Below, piece after piece: positions 45,195 through 52,499 of a stretch of 52,666 nt of DNA. Position 1 is the first letter of the stretch. Every line of letters begins with the position of its first letter. The position numbers and the translations under genes are program-made. The stretch is from an uncultured Ruminococcus sp. (GTDB lineage: Bacteria > Bacillota > Clostridia > Oscillospirales > Ruminococcaceae), in NCBI GenBank assembly GCA_902787825.1, contig CADAHS010000014.1, forward strand, positions 1 through 52,666, written 5' to 3'. The notes under the pieces were generated by a model, which saw only the letters and a list, made by a program, of their open reading frames with translations, did not search any database and was not told the origin of the DNA.

Positions 45195-45959
45195 ATGAGT
45201 CAGATTTGTAAAAACTGCGGTGCTGTTATCGCCGACGGCGAGCGTATGTGTCTGAACTGCGGTAAAGTCCTCCCCAAAACTGTTAAGGCAGTTGTCAGGG
45301 AAGGCAACCAGTTCAGTGCGATCAATCAGGGTATGTATCAAAACACCCAGATGACCGACGTGAAAAGACAGTTCTCACCTACCATGGCGGCAAGCAACCA
45401 GACCTACTCCAAAGAGCGCAATCGTGCCGCAAAACATACTTTTGAAAAGAATAAAAAGCTGCAAACCAGCAATAATTCCATAAAGATGAACTATGCCAAC
45501 ACCGATTTCGATGCACAGGCAAACGCTTTGCGGCCCACCGAGGTCGAAACGGGCAGCGGCAACGAGAGCAAAAGCAAGCTCCACCCAATTGCCAACAGGA
45601 TCGGCTGGATCATTGCCTTTCTCATCTTTTTGTATTTCGCTTTCGGCGGAATTATGATACTTATTGCCAGAAACGATACATACAGCTACGAAAGCAGCAA
45701 AAAAGATCCGATAGTCGCTTCGACATACGCTGAAGCAATGCATAACTATTTCGATTCCGGCTGGTGGCACTACCGCATAACCAAAGGCGTGTACTACACC
45801 GGGAAGACCGAAAGCGGCGATAAGTATGAGATCTATTTCACGACGCACGACGGCGAGCGTTACGTTGATAAGCTTTACATCAACGGCGAAAAGGTCGAAT
45901 CCAACAATCTGATGAACTCCCATATCCGGGAAATGTTCACTGCGCCAAGCAAGCCTTAG
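45195..45959 (+). CDS. zinc-ribbon membrane protein of unknown function
   Basis: A 254-aa protein with an N-terminal double Cys-X2-Cys zinc ribbon (CKNCGAVIADGERMCLNCGK, residues 5-24), a basic low-complexity linker to about 130, a transmembrane helix (about 136-158), and an extracytoplasmic C-terminal domain of 90 residues rich in Tyr (HYRITKGVYYTGKTESGDKYE). This is the zinc-ribbon, helix, outside-domain plan common in Clostridia, with no known function. AGAAAGG precedes the ATG. It follows lexA by 30 bases and is terminated at 46006. Confidence 0.8.
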   Translation: MSQICKNCGAVIADGERMCLNCGKVLPKTVKAVVREGNQFSAINQGMYQNTQMTDVKRQFSPTMAASNQTYSKERNRAAKHTFEKNKKLQTSNNSIKMNYANTDFDAQANALRPTEVETGSGNESKSKLHPIANRIGWIIAFLIFLYFAFGGIMILIARNDTYSYESSKKDPIVASTYAEAMHNYFDSGWWHYRITKGVYYTGKTESGDKYEIYFTTHDGERYVDKLYINGEKVESNNLMNSHIREMFTAPSKP

Positions 45960-46005
45960 CTGTGCTTGATGCATCTGAACAGACATTATCATCTGATATA
46001 ACAAA

Positions 46006-46044
46006 GAGCCATTGGAATATGCCTTCCAACGGCTCCTTTTTTTT
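46006..46044 (+). terminator. terminator of murC-lexA-zinc-ribbon operon
   Basis: GAGCCATTGGAA (46006-46017) pairs with TTCCAACGGCTC (46024-46035, one mismatch) followed by CTTTTTTTT. Confidence 0.92.
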
Positions 46045-46058
46045 GCGCACTGCCCCGC

Positions 46059-46090
46059 AAAGAAAAAAGACGGCGTGCGCCGTCCTTTTT
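46059..46090 (-). terminator. terminator of the DUF4097 gene and candidate small RNA
   Basis: GACGGC (46084-46079 region) and GCCGTC form a perfect stem around GCAC/GTGC on the minus strand, followed by TTTTTTCTTT. The plus strand also has a T-run, so it can act in both directions. Confidence 0.88.
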
Positions 46091-46160
46091 CCTGTCTGTC
46101 TCCTTTGGGTGTTTGGTGTATCATTTGTCTTATTTAGAAATCTCTACTCTTCTCCCCTAT
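46062..46160 (-). ncRNA. candidate ~98-nt small RNA from the 3' region of the DUF4097 gene
   Basis: A promoter-like array (46167-46223) points into a short region that ends at the terminator 46059-46090. The predicted transcript begins with the purine-rich AUAGGGGAGAAGAGUAGAG and is mostly single-stranded up to the terminator stem. It contains no start codon with a ribosome binding site. It also fits a 3'-UTR-derived RNA, as the DUF4097 mRNA would use the same terminator. The start site is inferred from the -10 TACTAT (46172-46167). Confidence 0.45.
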
Positions 46161-46166
46161 GTCTAT

Positions 46167-46223
46167 ATAGTAACATCTCTTTCTAAAAAAACTCTTAAAA
46201 AAAGTCTTAAAAAAAGCTTAAAT
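46167..46223 (-). promoter_or_regulatory. TTAAG-array promoter, copy 2 (CiaR-box-like)
   Basis: Read on the minus strand: TTAAG, 6 bases, TTAAG, 7 bases, TTAAG, 21 bases, TACTAT. The first two half-sites read TTTAAG-N5-TTTAAG. The same spacing occurs in copy 1 at 47299-47355. No good -35 hexamer exists, so an activator is expected to bind the array. Confidence 0.6.
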
Positions 46224-46301
46224 CTCATCAAATTTTACCGTCAAAATATAATTGATCGGGAAGCTCTCTCTTGAAACCAGCGGGATCCCTCGGGTCGTTT
46301 A

Positions 46302-47228
46302 TCAATTATTGACGAGTATATTGACATCGCCGGAAGATGTGTCTATGCTGATGCTATTGCTGCCCGAGCCGGCAGTATAGGTATCTCCATCTCTTGACAG
46401 CGCAAGCTCTGAATAGAACTCGCCTGATGAGGTATCCACCTCTGCCTCAAAGTCGGCGTCTTTAGGAACACAAATAGTCACATCGCCCGATGAAGCGTCC
46501 ACTCTGAGCTTCTTCGGAACATTCTCAAATTGGAATTTCATATCTCCGCTTGACGCATCAGCAGCGACCTTATCTGCCTCTTTGACATCAATGTTTATCT
46601 TTCCCGACGAGGTGTCAACATCTATATTGCCGACCTTTGCGGCAGTTATGCTAACGCTGCCGGAAGACGAGTCTGCACTTATGCTGTCAGCATCGCCGTC
46701 AAGCTCAATTTCTACATCTCCGGATGATGAATCGCTTTTTATCTTGTTTGCTTTGCAGTCCGTGATCTCCAGCTTGCCCGAGGACAGATCCGAATTTATC
46801 GTATCAGCGGTTATCCCGTCGATCTTGCAGTCGCACGAGGATCCGTCGATACTGAACTCTGAAAGCTCGCTGTTTTTCGGCAGGCTCAGATAAAGATCCT
46901 TCTTTGGTGTTTCAAACACCATCATCTCGCCGGATTTGCAAAACTGGATATGCAGCGTATCGCCATCGACCCAGGTGTGCATTCTCCTGCTTTCCTTCAA
47001 GTCCTTGTCGCAGGATTCACTGACATCGAGCGTGTCCTTGTCGTGCAGCGATACCTTAATATCCCCTGCCAACCAGTTGATTTCTATTTTACTGATCTTT
47101 TCGCTTATCTCTCTGTCACCGGTGGTGTACTTGTCTGCATTTGAATAATTGTTCATCGAACAGCTTCCCAGACAGATAACTGCGGTCACCGCCAGAAAAA
47201 GCGCCGCAAGAGTCGATTTGATTTTCAT
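46302..47228 (-). CDS. DUF4097 lipoprotein with SSG repeats
   Basis: A 308-aa secreted lipoprotein. The signal peptide is followed by the lipobox LGSC with the lipidated Cys at residue 23. The mature protein is a string of about eight units of the form Asp-(Ser/Thr/Ala)-Ser-Ser-Gly-(Asp/Lys)-Val-x-Ile, spaced about 20 residues, which is the repetitive beta-solenoid pattern of DUF4097. LiaG of the B. subtilis Lia envelope-stress operon belongs to this family. AAGGAG precedes the ATG. Its promoter carries a TTAAG array, so it probably belongs to an envelope-stress or two-component regulon. Confidence 0.85.
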   Translation of the reverse strand: MKIKSTLAALFLAVTAVICLGSCSMNNYSNADKYTTGDREISEKISKIEINWLAGDIKVSLHDKDTLDVSESCDKDLKESRRMHTWVDGDTLHIQFCKSGEMMVFETPKKDLYLSLPKNSELSEFSIDGSSCDCKIDGITADTINSDLSSGKLEITDCKANKIKSDSSSGDVEIELDGDADSISADSSSGSVSITAAKVGNIDVDTSSGKINIDVKEADKVAADASSGDMKFQFENVPKKLRVDASSGDVTICVPKDADFEAEVDTSSGEFYSELALSRDGDTYTAGSGSNSISIDTSSGDVNILVNN

Positions 47229-47298
47229 TCATATTCTCCTTAGTTCCATAAACCGCAAATATTGGGGTGCAGTCTTTAGTGAAGGGTTTCCGGTTATA

Positions 47299-47355
47299 AG
47301 CATACCAACCCTTCCTGAAAAAATCCTTAATTCAATTCTTAAAAAATGCTTAAAA
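47299..47355 (-). promoter_or_regulatory. TTAAG-array promoter, copy 1, of the DUF4097 gene
   Basis: On the minus strand: TTAAG (47353-47349), 6 bases, TTAAG (47342-47338), 7 bases, TTAAG (47330-47326), 21 bases, then TATGCT (47304-47299), overlapping a second -10 candidate TATAAC. The spacing is identical to copy 2. The array lies where the -35 and upstream region would be. Its T-run also doubles as the tail of the terminator of the ABC operon. Confidence 0.65.
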
Positions 47356-47382
47356 AACGGCAGGACATATTCTGTCCTGCCG
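47352..47382 (-). terminator. terminator of the ABC-2 exporter operon
   Basis: CGGCAGGACA (minus strand, 47382-47373) pairs with TGTCCTGCCG (47367-47358) over a 5-base loop, followed by TTTTTT. Confidence 0.9.
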
Positions 47383-47392
47383 CTGATCCTGC

Positions 47393-48532
47393 TCAGATCG
47401 CTTTTTTCTGTTTTTTAACTATGAGGGAAACTGCAAATATAGCCGCAGCGAACAGAAGCTGAATGCCTACGCACATCATTACGGTCGAAAGCTTGAACTG
47501 TTCTGTGCTAAGACCGCAGATCATATCATTAGCCTTGACGTACCAGTATGCAGGCAGGAACCTTGCAGCTGCAAGCACACTGCTTGAAAGCATCTCCTGC
47601 GGAACGAACATTCCGCAGAGGAAAGCCATTCCAAGACCAAGTACCTGTGTTACGAACGCAAGCACGTTGTCACCTATTCCAAGCTCTGCAAACAGCAGTG
47701 CGATCGAAACACAGACAAGCGTGAATGCTACTGTGTTGAGTACTGCGTACCACATATTGCCCGAGAACATTCCGCCGTTTTTGCCAACGCCAAATGCCAT
47801 AAGTATCAGCCATATGATGAATACGAAGATGCCGCTTGCTGCGATAGTCTGAGCTGAAACGCTTGAAGTTTTTATGCTTGAGCACTTTGTTCTGAAGCCG
47901 ACACCTTTTTTGTTCATCGCAACGACGACGGGGCAAAGCACGCTGACGATCAGGCTGAGAAGTGCATAGGGCATATAGTTGAAAAACGATGCAGCTTTGG
48001 TCTGTGCGCTCTCGTTCTCAAACGTCTCAAATGTAACCTCTGTCTTGACATCAAGTGCCTGCTGCGCCGCATCAAGCGCCTTGTCAAGCTCCATACCGCC
48101 TGCCATATAGGTCCTTACTGTCGAAACGTAGGTGTCAAGGTTGGAGTCTGCAAGCTTGTTGGTGTAGCTGTCGTGAAGATAGCGTGCAGTGAAAAGTCCG
48201 TCTGTTTCGCCCTTTGAAAGCTTATCCTGATAGCCCTCGTTTATGGTGATAACATAGTTTGTTGAGGTGACGTACAAAGCGTCGATGAGCTTATCCTTGT
48301 CGTCCTCAAAGTCAACGATGATGTTGTCCTTTGCAAGATATTCGCAAAGCTTTCTGCTTGCATCTGTCTTGTCGTGGTCGAAGATCGTAAGCGCCATTTT
48401 TGAAGTCTTGAATGTATCTGCGCCGCCGCCGACATTTGTAAAGTTGAGTATCAGCAGGAATATGCCAAGGAACACAAGCATAGACAGCCATTTTGTCTTT
48501 GCGATCTTGAAAAACAGCTTAAAGACTTGCAT
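47393..48532 (-). CDS. ABC-2 type permease, second subunit
   Basis: A 379-aa membrane protein: an N-terminal helix (about 12-32), a large extracytoplasmic domain of about 160 residues (ALTIFDHDKTDASRKLCEYL and following), then five or six helices. This is the ABC2_membrane_3 layout of heterodimeric exporters. It has the same length as the permease in front and a similar plan, and starts 14 bases before that gene ends, so the two are coupled and probably form one channel. Confidence 0.9.
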   Translation of the reverse strand: MQVFKLFFKIAKTKWLSMLVFLGIFLLILNFTNVGGGADTFKTSKMALTIFDHDKTDASRKLCEYLAKDNIIVDFEDDKDKLIDALYVTSTNYVITINEGYQDKLSKGETDGLFTARYLHDSYTNKLADSNLDTYVSTVRTYMAGGMELDKALDAAQQALDVKTEVTFETFENESAQTKAASFFNYMPYALLSLIVSVLCPVVVAMNKKGVGFRTKCSSIKTSSVSAQTIAASGIFVFIIWLILMAFGVGKNGGMFSGNMWYAVLNTVAFTLVCVSIALLFAELGIGDNVLAFVTQVLGLGMAFLCGMFVPQEMLSSSVLAAARFLPAYWYVKANDMICGLSTEQFKLSTVMMCVGIQLLFAAAIFAVSLIVKKQKKAI

Positions 48533-49658
48533 ACTTACGCCTCCTTGTCATTAAAAGTCCGAGTGTGATGAATACAACTATCGTGATCATCATAGTTACG
48601 ATACACTGAATGTATCTTGTGTAATCCTCATAGATGTTGAGGCTGAAAAAGCTCTCGCACATTACCGCCGCAGGGTTGACCTTGTTGAACCATGCGAATG
48701 AGGATTCTGCGATCTTCTGCTTTATGCCTGCGTCCATAAGTCCGCTGCAGAAGCAAAGCAGAAGTGATGATGCTGTACACAGTGCGTTCTTTGTGTTTTC
48801 ACTGAATCTGCCTATCGAGCCTATCACAAAGCCCAGCGAGCTTCCCACGAAGCCTGCAAGTATCGCCGTGAGGTAAACAAGCGGTATCCTGTCGCCCATA
48901 TCAACACGCAGCACGGTAATAATGAACGTTACTGCGATCACCATACAGATAGCCTGCACAACGAATGTTGCACACAGGTTTGAAAGTATCGTAGTGATCT
49001 TTGGGGTGGGTGAAACGCACTTTCTTGCGCCAAGCGCAGAGAGATTTCCCTGGTTGTGAGTTGCAACGTGCAGACCGGCAATAGAGCCGAACATAGCTAC
49101 CATTGCAAGCAGATTGTAAAAATACTGATCATACATATTGGTGTTGCCGTTTGAAAGTGCCTCGGACTTTACGGTGCTTATCTCCTCAGTCAGAGCCTTT
49201 GTGACATCACCGATCTTTGCAGGATCGCTCTTGGCTGTGTCAGTGATTATCTTTGCGCTGAGATTGTACTTTTCAACAAACTTTTCAAGCATCGTGCTTT
49301 TGAGGCTGTTTGAGGAAACTGTCAGAGATAGCTGATCGTCTACGAAGATTATTCCACGAACATCTTCGTCTTTGAGCTTTTTAAGAGCATCTTCCTTGTC
49401 GGTATAGATGAATGAAAACATCGCATCATCGCCGGTTTCCATATTTTCTGCGACCTGCCTGAAAGCCTTTGCGCCCTCCTCGGAGTTTACAACTACCGCT
49501 GTCCTGACGGTGGTGAACTTGATGTCGTTGTCGTAGATGTTTCCGAAAGCCACCTTGAAGAAAGTGCCCAGCGCTATCGGATATATGATGAGCCATATGA
49601 TTATTTCTCTTACACGAAGGCTCGTTAAGATGTCATATTTGAAATTATGCCTGAACAT
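48519..49658 (-). CDS. ABC-2 type permease, first subunit
   Basis: A 379-aa membrane protein starting MFRHNFKYDILTSLRVREIIIWL. One helix is followed by a large outside domain (TTVRTAVVVNSEEGAKAF and following) and then a C-terminal set of helices with the GARKCVSPTPKITTIL coupling loop. AAAGGAG eight bases before ATG at 49658 supports this start; an ATG at 49685 overlaps the ATPase stop (ATGA) and is possible. It pairs with the second permease downstream. Confidence 0.9.
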   Translation of the reverse strand: MFRHNFKYDILTSLRVREIIIWLIIYPIALGTFFKVAFGNIYDNDIKFTTVRTAVVVNSEEGAKAFRQVAENMETGDDAMFSFIYTDKEDALKKLKDEDVRGIIFVDDQLSLTVSSNSLKSTMLEKFVEKYNLSAKIITDTAKSDPAKIGDVTKALTEEISTVKSEALSNGNTNMYDQYFYNLLAMVAMFGSIAGLHVATHNQGNLSALGARKCVSPTPKITTILSNLCATFVVQAICMVIAVTFIITVLRVDMGDRIPLVYLTAILAGFVGSSLGFVIGSIGRFSENTKNALCTASSLLLCFCSGLMDAGIKQKIAESSFAWFNKVNPAAVMCESFFSLNIYEDYTRYIQCIVTMMITIVVFITLGLLMTRRRKYASL

Positions 49659-49681
49659 ACTGTTTCTCCTTTTGTCTTTCG

Positions 49682-50629
49682 TCATTCGCTGTCTCTGAGC
49701 TGCTTTCCGGTTATTTCAAGGAACACATCGTTGAGTGTAGGAAGCTCCGAATAAACTCTGCCAAACGCAATATCGTGCTCCTGAAGCACTCCAAGGATCC
49801 TGATGAGGTTGTGTTTACCGCCCGAGCAGTAGATGTAGAGCTTTGAGTCTTTGTACTGTACGTCGTAAACGTGCACAAGACCACTCATCTGCTGGATAAT
49901 GCTGTCATCAGGCTGCTCCATCTCTATTGAAACTGTTTCTGTGTTCTTTATCATCTTTTTAAGCTCTGCTTTAGTGCCAAGGGCGATGTTCTTGCCCTTA
50001 TCCATTATCGCAATGCGTGAGCAGATCTGCTCGACCTCCTCCATATAATGAGAGGTATATATAATAGTAGCACCCTGAGCGTTAAGTTCAAGTATGCCCT
50101 CAAGGATCTTGTTTCTGCTCTGAGGATCGACCGCAACAGTCGGTTCGTCAAGGATTATCAGCTCCGGCTTGTGGGCGATACCGCAGGCAATGTTGAGTCG
50201 TCTGAGCAAACCGCCCGAAAGCTTTTTGGGTCTGAACTTTGTGAACTCCTCAAGACCCACAAACTTTATCGCATCGTCAACATATTTCTTTCTTGTCTGT
50301 TTATCGGTGATATAAAGTCCGCAGAAATAGTCGATGTTTTCAATAACTGTAAGCTCATCGTAGACCGCAACATTCTGCGAGATAACGCCGATACGCTTTT
50401 TAAGTGCGTAGTTTGTCGGGGTCATCTTTTCGCCGAAGATCTCGATCTCACCCTTGTCAAAGTCAAGCAGTGACAGCAGACAGTTGATCGTTGTTGTCTT
50501 GCCCGAACCGTTGGGTCCGAGAAGTCCGAAGACCTCACCCTGTTTGATCTCAAGATCGAAATGATCCACCGCTATAAGCTCCTTGTATCTTTTCACCAGA
50601 TTGCTGATCTTAACTACTGTCTGAGCCAT
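49682..50629 (-). CDS. ABC transporter ATP-binding protein
   Basis: A 315-aa ATPase: Walker A GLLGPNGSGKTT, Q-loop near VISQNVAVYDELT, signature LSGGLLRRLNIACG, Walker B LIILDEPTVAVDP, H-loop SHY. The C-terminal ~80-residue extension is typical of DrrA/YhaP-like exporters of lipids, drugs or peptides. GGGAGGAAACAAC precedes ATG. It heads the exporter operon and is divergent from the two-component system, which is the usual layout for an antibiotic- or envelope-responsive exporter. Confidence 0.93.
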   Translation of the reverse strand: MAQTVVKISNLVKRYKELIAVDHFDLEIKQGEVFGLLGPNGSGKTTTINCLLSLLDFDKGEIEIFGEKMTPTNYALKKRIGVISQNVAVYDELTVIENIDYFCGLYITDKQTRKKYVDDAIKFVGLEEFTKFRPKKLSGGLLRRLNIACGIAHKPELIILDEPTVAVDPQSRNKILEGILELNAQGATIIYTSHYMEEVEQICSRIAIMDKGKNIALGTKAELKKMIKNTETVSIEMEQPDDSIIQQMSGLVHVYDVQYKDSKLYIYCSGGKHNLIRILGVLQEHDIAFGRVYSELPTLNDVFLEITGKQLRDSE

Positions 50630-50675
50630 GTTGTTTCCTCCCGTGTGTCTGTTTTGTTTTTCTTACTGTAACTAC

Positions 50676-50708
50676 ATTATATCACGCCGTTTGTCACTTT
50701 GTAAGTGA
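50676..50708 (-). promoter_or_regulatory. promoter of the ABC operon with overlapping inverted repeat
   Basis: TATAAT (50681-50676) has only a weak -35 (TTACAA) 17 bases upstream. The perfect inverted repeat TCACTT-TGT-AAGTGA (50694-50708) covers that -35 region. This form suits the dimeric NarL-type response regulator encoded divergently, so direct control of the exporter is likely; activation or repression cannot be decided. Confidence 0.55.
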
Positions 50709-50752
50709 ACAGAGTAACTAATCGATATGACATTTGTAATATTGTATCGTAA

Positions 50753-50782
50753 TTGACAAAAGGGTCGAAAATGTGGTATCAT
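50753..50782 (+). promoter_or_regulatory. sigma-A promoter of the two-component system
   Basis: TTGACA (50753-50758), 18 bases, TATCAT (50777-50782) on the + strand. Confidence 0.75.
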
Positions 50783-50808
50783 ATCTTTTAAGAAAAGCAG
50801 AAAGAGGG

Positions 50809-51873
50809 GTGGACACTATATCTGAACTGATAGAAAAACTGATAATAACTCTGGTGTGCTCCACCTGCCTGATAGATCACTCGACCAGCACAAGTATGCC
50901 TGTTGTAGCACTTCTCACAAGCATAACGATCAGCTGTCTTGTCACCTTGGTAAAAACCAGATATATGCAGTATGCTCTTGTCACAGTGTTTATCGGCTGC
51001 TGCTTTGTAAGCCCCTGTTTTGCGATCTTTCTTCCGCTTATCGCCTATGACATATCACGCAAAAAGCTGTATGTGCTTGCTTTCGCAGCTCTTGCGGCGC
51101 TTGGCTTTCAGACTTACAGCGGCGATCTCAGACTGCTGTTCACAACGATCACCTTCAGTGTCATCTCCGTAACAGTCGAGCTGCTCTCCTCACGATCTCA
51201 CCTGCTGAAATCCGAGCTTATCAAAACCAGGGACAACGCCGTTGAATACTCAAACGAGCTTATCAGAAATCAGGATAACGAGATCCACCTTGCGACACTC
51301 ACCGAGCGAAACCGTATTGCCCGTGAGATACACGACAACGTCGGACATATGCTCACAAGGACTATCCTGCAAATGGGTGCGATACAGATAATCAATAAGG
51401 ACGAAGATCTTAAAGAACCGCTTGACAGCGTAAAGTCAACGCTTGATGAGGCTATGACCTCGATAAGAAAAAGCGTGCATGATCTGCACAACGACTCAAT
51501 AGACCTTGAATACTCTCTGCGTGATGCGATCTCACCTCTCAAAGAGAAATTCGAGCTGACCTTTGATTATGATGTTTCCAATCACATCAGCGGAAAGATC
51601 AAATACTGCTTTATCGCTGTCGTCAAAGAGGCTGTCAACAACATTATCAAGCACTCAAACGGCAACAGCGTAAATATCACAGTGCGTGAACACCCGGCAA
51701 TGTGCACACTCAGTATTGAGGATAACGGCAAATGCGCCGAAAACATATCCTCCGGCGGCATAGGTCTTGATAATATGCACGAAAGAGTAAAAGCGCTTGG
51801 CGGAGTTCTGAATATCACCCCGAGTGAACAGGGCTTTAAAATATTCATAAGTATCATGAAAAAGGGGAATTGA
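50809..51873 (+). CDS. DesK/LiaS-type sensor histidine kinase
   Basis: About 354 aa. The N-terminal ~110 residues form several closely packed transmembrane helices without a sizable outside loop, as in intramembrane-sensing kinases. The HisKA_3 motif ERNRIAREIHDNVGH has its phosphoacceptor His near residue 175. The HATPase has EAVNNIIKHSNG, IEDNG and GGIGLDNMHERVKALGG. The start is unclear: the promoter's -10 excludes earlier codons, and the GTG at 50809 lies inside its own purine-rich ribosome binding site; the next in-frame candidates are unusual codons. It overlaps the regulator gene. Confidence 0.9.
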   Translation: MDTISELIEKLIITLVCSTCLIDHSTSTSMPVVALLTSITISCLVTLVKTRYMQYALVTVFIGCCFVSPCFAIFLPLIAYDISRKKLYVLAFAALAALGFQTYSGDLRLLFTTITFSVISVTVELLSSRSHLLKSELIKTRDNAVEYSNELIRNQDNEIHLATLTERNRIAREIHDNVGHMLTRTILQMGAIQIINKDEDLKEPLDSVKSTLDEAMTSIRKSVHDLHNDSIDLEYSLRDAISPLKEKFELTFDYDVSNHISGKIKYCFIAVVKEAVNNIIKHSNGNSVNITVREHPAMCTLSIEDNGKCAENISSGGIGLDNMHERVKALGGVLNITPSEQGFKIFISIMKKGN

Positions 51874-51878
51874 CAAAT

Positions 51879-52499
51879 ATGAAGATAATTGTTATAGACG
51901 ACGATAATCTGGTTGCGCTTTCACTAAAGACCATTCTTGAAAGCACCGGCAATATCGAGGTCACAGCAATAGGTCACAGCGGTGAAGACGCTATCGCACT
52001 TTACAGCGCCCACAAACCCGATGTTATGCTGATGGATATTCGTATGCAGGGTATGACGGGACTTGAAGCAGGCGAAAAGATACTCGCCTCGGACAGCAGC
52101 GCAAAGATACTTTATCTCACGACATTCTCTGATGATGAATATATCGTCAAAGCCCTCAATATCGGAGCAAAAGGCTATATCCTCAAACAGGATTTCAACG
52201 GTATAGAGCCTGCTCTGCAAGCGGTCATGAACGGTCAGAGCGTGTTCGGCGATCAGGTCATCAGCAAGCTCCCTGAGCTTATGAGCGGCAAGGAACAGTT
52301 TGACTATTCCCGCTGCGGACTTACCGACAAGGAGTGGGAGCTGACTACGCTCGTCGCACAGGGCCTGAGCAACAAAGAGATCGCCTCAGAAATGTTTCTC
52401 AGCGAAGGAACTGTCCGCAACTATCTCAGCCAGATCCTTGAAAAGCTCGACCTGCGTGACCGCACCCAGCTCGCAATCTTCTATTTCAACCATAAGTAA
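51879..52499 (+). CDS. NarL/LuxR-type response regulator
   Basis: A 206-aa regulator with a receiver domain (IIVIDDDN; phosphoacceptor D53 in MLMDIRM; Thr in LTTFSDDEY; Lys in YILKQ) and a C-terminal LuxR helix-turn-helix (LTDKEWELTTLVAQGLSNKEIA and EGTVRNYLSQIL). The ATG at 51879 follows GGGGAATTGACAAAT; a TTG at 51870 overlapping the kinase stop is possible. It probably acts on the divergent ABC operon through the inverted repeat at 50694-50708. Confidence 0.93.
   Translation: MKIIVIDDDNLVALSLKTILESTGNIEVTAIGHSGEDAIALYSAHKPDVMLMDIRMQGMTGLEAGEKILASDSSAKILYLTTFSDDEYIVKALNIGAKGYILKQDFNGIEPALQAVMNGQSVFGDQVISKLPELMSGKEQFDYSRCGLTDKEWELTTLVAQGLSNKEIASEMFLSEGTVRNYLSQILEKLDLRDRTQLAIFYFNHK

Follow-up and report, generated by a model that had tools for sequence, protein, structure and literature searches.

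Two arrays of TTTAAG-type half-sites lie in predicted promoters on the minus strand of this DNA, and both are likely to be read as activator boxes by one OmpR/PhoB-family regulator encoded on another contig of the same genome (C35), which would thereby control a surface lipoprotein, an exporter and a small RNA. Comparison of related genomes supports the existence of an OmpR-type regulon that includes the surface lipoprotein and the small RNA. Both the regulon and the RNA would be new, although of the known CiaR/csRNA kind, and our literature searches yielded no paper that we recognised as describing such a regulon or RNA in these bacteria. Hereafter, "the window" denotes the whole stretch of 52,666 nucleotides that was analysed, and "the own genome" that of the uncultured Ruminococcus sp. 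from which it comes.

Array A (47299..47354, minus strand) is located in the predicted promoter of a gene for a DUF4097 lipoprotein, and array B (46167..46222, minus strand) in that of the small RNA. The original prediction described each as three TTAAG half-sites with spacings of 6 and 7 bases, followed after 21 bases by a -10-like hexamer. These spacings are exact, with the minus strand reading TTAAG-CATTTT-TTAAG-AATTGAA-TTAAG-N21-TATGCT from 47353 and TTAAG-CTTTTT-TTAAG-ACTTTTT-TTAAG-N21-TACTAT from 46221, and half-sites 1 and 2 do form TTTAAG-N5-TTTAAG in both arrays. The arrays themselves therefore stand as described, but the count of three does not, because a fourth, weaker half-site is present 10 bases before an extended -10. 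Alignment with relatives gives the complete unit as TTTAAG-N5-TTTAAG-N6-TTTAAG-N5-TTTnAG, then N10 and the extended -10 TGnTAnnnT, so that the 21-base distance is the sum of N5, half-site 4 and N10. In array A the half-sites are TTTAAG (47354-47349), TTTAAG (47343-47338), ATTAAG (47331-47326) and TTTCAG (47320-47315), and the extended -10 TGG-TATGCT follows after N10 (hexamer 47304-47299). Array B consists of TTTAAG at 46222-46217, 46211-46206 and 46199-46194 and TTTTAG at 46188-46183, with the extended -10 TGT-TACTAT again after N10 (hexamer 46172-46167). Half-site 4, degenerate in both window arrays, is a full TTTAAG in the relatives G002, G023, G087 and G186. Among 20 distinct sites, the T of the TG in the extended -10 is kept in all and its G in 19; the T, A and final T of the -10 hexamer are kept in all 20, and each TTAAG position of half-sites 2 and 3 in 19 or 20. 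The poor -35 of both promoters is consistent with an extended -10.

A genome-wide search recovers both window sites together with a third full array, although the form with three half-sites is incomplete. Among the best 150 candidates, a 12-site model finds three full arrays in the own genome (C14:46166, C14:47299 and C36:3889), with the next match at E 0.019; the model includes these three sites, so that it matches them by construction, as it does for its E values of 6.7e-13 (array A) and 2.7e-13 (array B). The targets in this genome are the small RNA, the LiaG-like DUF4097 lipoprotein and a MacB/FtsX exporter (C36:3889). Single TTTAAG-N5-TTTAAG dimers, followed by TCAG and with GATCTCCTGC nearby, occur at G000:C35:3236-3258 (L124) and G000:C70:3266-3286 (L125); no -10 is visible at either, and they may be non-promoter binding sites or chance occurrences.

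Among the best 150 candidates per genome, 13 of 29 genus genomes have array sites at E <= 1e-8, and the remaining 16 have a best match of 0.008 or weaker. All 23 sites that reach E <= 1e-5 are in those 13 genomes. Ten of them precede a lantibiotic-protection-type ABC operon, eight of these directly after an OmpR-type regulator gene. Five precede a MacB/FtsX exporter and another five the small RNA (in each case in the own genome, G009, G020, G006 and G016), and three precede a DUF4097 lipoprotein (own genome, G009 and G020). Genus matches weaker than E 1e-5, among them G020 C124, G020 C64 and G006 C88, were excluded from these counts. Two of the excluded sites might mark further members of the regulon: a weaker array at G020:C124:3060-3115 (L159; E 1.6e-4) precedes a leucine-rich-repeat (LRR_5) protein, and another at G020:C64:3165-3216 (L160; E 3.9e-4) precedes a 465-residue protein without a Pfam family. 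Under stricter filters, a family sample of 148 genomes (best 37 candidates per genome) yielded arrays at E <= 1e-4 in the own genome, G087 and G186, and an order sample of 394 (best 14 per genome) yielded one in a further genome, G545. The arrays of G087, G186 and G545 each precede an ABC gene of this lantibiotic-protection type; the own ABC ATPase matches the TIGR03740 model below its cut-off (197.5 of 309.75 bits). Because the genomes are related, such counts are not independent.

As the original prediction noted, no OmpR-type regulator lies in the window; 14 were found in the genome, every one on another contig. The candidate is the OmpR/PhoB-family protein at G000:C35:8148-8825, which matches the Pfam models Response_reg (83.0 bits) and Trans_reg_C (90.4 bits) above cut-off. 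Its best NCBIfam matches are MtrA, PhoB and VanR, all below cut-off, and the closest solved chains are RegX3 and MtrA. An orthologue (E <= 1e-60) is found in 12 of the 13 array genomes of the genus versus none of the other 16 (Fisher p 2.5e-7, not corrected for relatedness), and in the family sample of 148 an orthologue (E <= 1e-75) is present in exactly the three array genomes, the own included. Furthermore, in 10 genomes (eight of the genus, G186 and G545) the array is situated between an OmpR-type regulator gene and the ABC operon. Further along, nine of these 10 loci also carry a kinase gene of the same family, and in the tenth, in G010, the contig ends first. Across its length, the G545 regulator shares only some 47% identity with its closest relative in the set. 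The recognition helix NTLNVH[IM]SKLRKKL is shared by 14 of the 15 array-linked regulators, including the own, and the fifteenth, from G545, has nearly the same helix (NTINVHISKLRSKI). Among the 14 OmpR-type regulators of the own genome, the helix of the candidate, NTLNVHISKLRKKL, occurs once. The co-occurrence of array and regulator, their adjacency in 10 genomes and the conservation of the small RNA support the proposal that an OmpR-type regulon operates here with a logic like that of CiaR.

It is fairly unlikely that the arrays are read by a different protein, which could be one of the 13 other OmpR-type regulators or the LuxR/NarL-type regulator beside the ABC operon in the window. A different OmpR-type regulator (C36:17867) is indeed encoded on the same contig as the exporter array, the gene for a GerE-domain response regulator is some 4.6 kb away from that of the lipoprotein, and G016 carries arrays without a detectable C35-type regulator. 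Neither the co-occurrence of array and C35-type regulator in genus and family, nor the array that abuts the C35-type gene in 10 genomes, nor the absence of the C35 recognition helix from the other 13 OmpR-type proteins would be expected on such a reading. In G016, which has two strong arrays, identity to the regulator reaches no more than 44% in a partial match and 41% when the full length is compared. The regulator gene is adjoined by a peroxiredoxin gene in the own genome, G006, G009, G010 and G020, and this flanking gene was likewise not found in G016 (by a search without a positive control), which makes it plausible that a gap in the assembly accounts for the missing regulator.

The preferred candidate, the C35 regulator, is followed by genes for an ABC ATPase, a permease, a small membrane protein and a HisKA/HATPase kinase; the membrane protein matches DUF1648 weakly, at E 0.017 and below cut-off. 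The kinase (G000:C35:11191-12075, L124; 294 residues) matches the NCBIfam VanS model over nearly its full length, below cut-off (149.7 of 400 bits). Since a simple hydropathy scan reveals only one hydrophobic stretch, at the N terminus, the kinase is unlikely to have an extracellular sensor domain and may instead receive its signal from a partner, for example the ABC transporter. In G545, which belongs to another genus of the family, the regulator gene (within G545:C25:59000-71000, L162) is followed by the array, then by a gene for an ABC ATPase and three permease-like genes in a row.

Taken together, these features suggest the following mechanism. The kinase would respond to a signal, probably damage to the envelope or an antimicrobial peptide, and two dimers of the C35 regulator would bind head to tail, one to TTTAAG-N5-TTTAAG and the other, 6 bases further on, to TTTAAG-N5-TTTnAG. 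The proximal dimer would end 10 bases before the extended -10 and replace the -35, as in CiaR-activated promoters. Array A would then turn on the LiaG-like surface lipoprotein, array B the non-coding RNA of about 98 nucleotides and the third array the MacB/FtsX exporter. We infer that binding is direct and that it activates rather than represses, as well as the nature of the signal, for which the targets (lantibiotic-type and MacB-type transporters and a LiaG-like lipoprotein) point to peptide or cell-wall stress. Four points count against this explanation: the -10 of array A (TATGCT) is weak, G016 has arrays but no regulator orthologue, the regulator's own ABC operon carries no array in the own genome or in G009, and most of the close lipoprotein homologues examined in relatives have none upstream.

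The predicted small RNA (46063..46160, minus strand) runs from about 46160 to 46063 as judged from nucleotide conservation, alignment and folds, with its start set 7 bases after the -10. It ends in an intrinsic terminator, GACGGC-GCAC-GCCGTC-T6 (46063..46084, minus strand), that is evident in both sequence and folds. That one array would serve the lipoprotein and the other a short RNA had been predicted at the outset, and the RNA part gains support from conservation that covers array, RNA and terminator, seen in the own genome and in four of 60 other genomes searched, at nucleotide identities of 87% (G009), 77% (G020) and 72% (G006 and G016). The match begins at query position 35-51, at or just before the array, and stops at 207-210, the end of the terminator; the other matches in that search are short pieces, mostly of the T-rich array. 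Within the RNA, the conserved blocks CATAGGGGAGAAG, ATGATACACC and GGAGACAGAC are separated by stretches that vary in length, and therefore no reading frame is kept. The molecule is mostly unpaired apart from its 3′ hairpin, which together with its run of U's is present in all five sequences, and the folds are more stable than those of shuffled sequences (z -3.6 to -5.8). A consensus fold also keeps the hairpin. Of its 13 predicted pairs, two are changed on both sides yet kept, but one or two of the aligned sequences break or lack several pairs, and the covariation term is +1 kcal/mol, so that covariation adds little.

It is unlikely that array B makes no small RNA and serves instead as the promoter of a gene for a short peptide, or of a transcript antisense to the convergent zinc-ribbon gene. 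An ATG at 46124 does open a frame inside a conserved block, and transcription from array B is directed at the convergent gene. The peptide-coding reading was rejected, however, because in the alignment, judged by eye, insertions and deletions among the relatives disrupt the frame after this ATG and no Shine-Dalgarno sequence is visible before it. The hairpin present in five of five sequences would end the transcript about 100 bases short of the convergent gene, which has a terminator-like hairpin of its own, and the nucleotide match to relatives is confined to the span from array to terminator.

A small RNA from array B thus remains the favoured reading, and it resembles csRNAs in being a short, intergenic predicted RNA with a promoter of this type and a terminator at its end (46160-46063). 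An Rfam search of 45900-47500 assigned no family to the own sequence, the only match being to part of CsrC, with a score well short of the cut-off (17 of 61 bits, E 0.018). A CsrC-type RNA was rejected, since no CsrA is found in 25 genus genomes (the own, which is 90% complete, and 24 relatives); CsrA was found in three of 41 genomes searched, all of other families. The RNA would act by base pairing. By eye, its conserved motifs (GGGGAG, GGAG) resemble Shine-Dalgarno sequences rather than their complements. Target prediction against 75 start regions of the own loci gave nothing convincing: the best value, -32.3 kcal/mol, is below the 10th percentile (-29.6) and above the minimum (-34.6) of 30 shuffles, and the region concerned is rich in GGGGG and CTCTT repeats and is an unlikely gene start. 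The value for the start region of the lipoprotein gene is -13.7 kcal/mol. In G006 and G016 the small RNA directly follows the ABC operon, the same place as in the window, but the DUF4097 gene is missing from between the two. In G020, the genes that surround this locus in the window are found on contigs C59 and C60, and the assembly probably breaks between them at the corresponding position. A pattern scan of genome contigs for the RNA returned six records; four are relatives already in the set, and L128 and L131 have no array and look like chance matches.

The gene served by array A (46302..47228, minus strand) encodes a LiaG-like lipoprotein of 308 residues with a Pfam DUF4097 match (E 3.5e-32). 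Its match to the NCBIfam LiaG model has an E value of 3e-38 yet is below cut-off (131.7 of 285 bits), and its assignment as a lipoprotein is based on a signal with LGSC, identified by eye. By-eye examination also revealed a terminator-like hairpin and T-run (47353..47381, minus strand) that close the upstream ABC operon and reach into half-site 1 of array A, which suggests that the lipoprotein gene needs its own promoter; G020 has a similar arrangement of hairpin and array. On the other side, a terminator-like hairpin of the convergent zinc-ribbon gene (45195-45959) faces the small RNA (45999..46040, plus strand; by eye). With these hairpins flanking them, the units driven by the two arrays seem to be isolated from their neighbours. 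Not all relatives place the lipoprotein under the control of an array. When homologues at E <= 1e-50 were considered, leaving out a second G020 copy (C9), an array was found upstream of two of nine close homologues (G009 and G020), and none within the 1.5 kb scanned for the other seven. A search of genome contigs with the lipoprotein gave no match.

The ABC operon directly upstream of the lipoprotein gene is of the DrrA-like/ABC-2 type (47393-49685). Divergent from it, at 49682-52499, is a pair of genes for a HisKA_3 kinase and a GerE-domain response regulator. Perhaps pair and operon represent a second envelope-stress system beside the arrays.

The exact pair TTAAG-N6-TTAAG occurs eight times in the 2.59 Mb of the own genome, two of these being the window arrays, versus four occurrences of the reversed pattern. 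In the window, the bare pair with one mismatch was found six times where 3.87 are expected, and 20 of 100 shuffles reach six; this is not significant, and the short motif alone therefore proves little. The complete unit was scored with a matrix trained on 11 promoter arrays of ABC operons, all from other genomes and all with targets of other kinds than those in the window (11 of 13 such arrays were used; those of G186 and G545, shifted by one base, are out of register and were left out). Arrays B (48.5) and A (44.8) rank first and second of 105,218 window positions, followed by 2.3 at an overlapping position. The full unit is far beyond chance, and both window arrays are confirmed as genuine, the initial observation being exact though incomplete. 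It is accordingly extremely improbable that T-rich tracts beside terminators merely resemble a CiaR box by coincidence, a reading that could point to the chance frequency of the one-mismatch pair and to the start of array A within a terminator-like T-run, given that no score exceeds 10.8 among 200 simulated windows, half of them first-order and half fourth-order, and that the full unit precedes homologous genes in several genomes.

Several known systems invite comparison. PhoB binds tandem pho boxes, which are head-to-tail 11-base repeats of which the last replaces the -35. The arrays described here are likewise tandem and head to tail, with a different half-site and a different regulon. Another is the CiaRH regulon of Streptococcus with its csRNAs, which is governed by an OmpR-family regulator (PMC3091779, PMC8317062, PMC9603419). 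The CiaR box is described as a direct repeat, TTTAAG-N5-TTTAAG, with the -10 at a distance of 10 bases, and CiaR targets include short terminator-ended RNAs of 51-202 nucleotides (PMC3091779). The CiaR-promoter pattern NTTAAG-N5-TTTAAG, with the G of each half-site, is found in half-sites 1 and 2 of both arrays; the proximal pair is TTTAAG-N5-TTTTAG in array B and ATTAAG-N5-TTTCAG in array A, its last half-site deviating and its G being kept. The CiaR-like distance of N10 from half-site 4 to the -10 is found in both window arrays and in the other aligned sites; the G186 and G545 arrays are one base out of register, further upstream. CiaR promoters have one repeat, in contrast to the two tandem repeats, or four half-sites, seen here. 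The recognition helices, VVEVYVSKVRKKL in CiaR (PMC3091779) versus LNVHISKLRKKL here, have the end SK[LV]RKKL in common, which is a resemblance and no evidence of orthology. Unlike in CiaRH, the regulator here sits with a lantibiotic-protection-type ABC operon, and the small RNA, unlike the csRNAs, is without an Rfam family. These comparisons support the view that the system works like CiaR/csRNA, as a likeness of design with a regulator that resembles MtrA/VanR/RegX3-type proteins.

The original prediction likened TTTAAG-N5-TTTAAG to the CiaR box. The repeat is the same, but it is not CiaR-specific, because it is also read by an OmpR-type regulator of B. anthracis (PMC4938410) and by PmrA of A. 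baumannii (PMC10927774). PmrA shares with the present case the box, the OmpR family and a role in envelope defence (polymyxin resistance), and differs in being from a Gram-negative organism, in its targets pmrC and naxD and in the one repeat described (PMC10927774). In CprRK-CprABC of Clostridioides difficile, as here, a two-component system controls a lantibiotic-type ABC transporter, and a further shared feature is that the regulator gene is distant from the operon (PMC5786555). CprK is reported to have an extracellular loop of 113 residues (PMC5786555), in contrast to the 294-residue kinase here with its single N-terminal hydrophobic stretch.

The distribution of the arrays also hints at how the regulon may have changed. 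The box is between regulator and ABC operon in 10 of the 15 genomes with an array-linked regulator. In G002:C45, G023:C57 and G087:C35 (L150, L151, L163), the regulator is an orphan with no kinase or ABC genes beside it, and the array has remained with the ABC operon at another locus. Regulator and ABC genes do adjoin in the own genome and G009, but no array lies in the gap between them, where the best matrix scores are -33.9 and -51.1, nor is one found in the whole regulator stretches of 16 kb and 14 kb, respectively; the lipoprotein, exporter and RNA still have theirs. G020 and G006 have arrays both at the ABC operon and at these other targets. The simplest reading would be an ancestral box at the ABC operon, later recruitment of further targets and then loss of the ancestral site. 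We tentatively speculate, at somewhat less than even confidence, that the regulon has been rewired such that in the own genome and G009 the regulator acts only in trans, on the exporter, the lipoprotein and a new RNA family, the last forming a post-transcriptional arm of the peptide-stress response with an origin independent of that of the streptococcal csRNAs.

For these bacteria, the analysis points to a box, to the regulator that probably reads it, to the probable kind of signal and to a new predicted small RNA. The absence of the presumed ancestral site from two genomes makes the proposed rewiring open to direct study. If a second TTTAAG-type box drives envelope genes together with a small RNA, the plan seen in CiaR and its csRNAs may be a solution that recurs.
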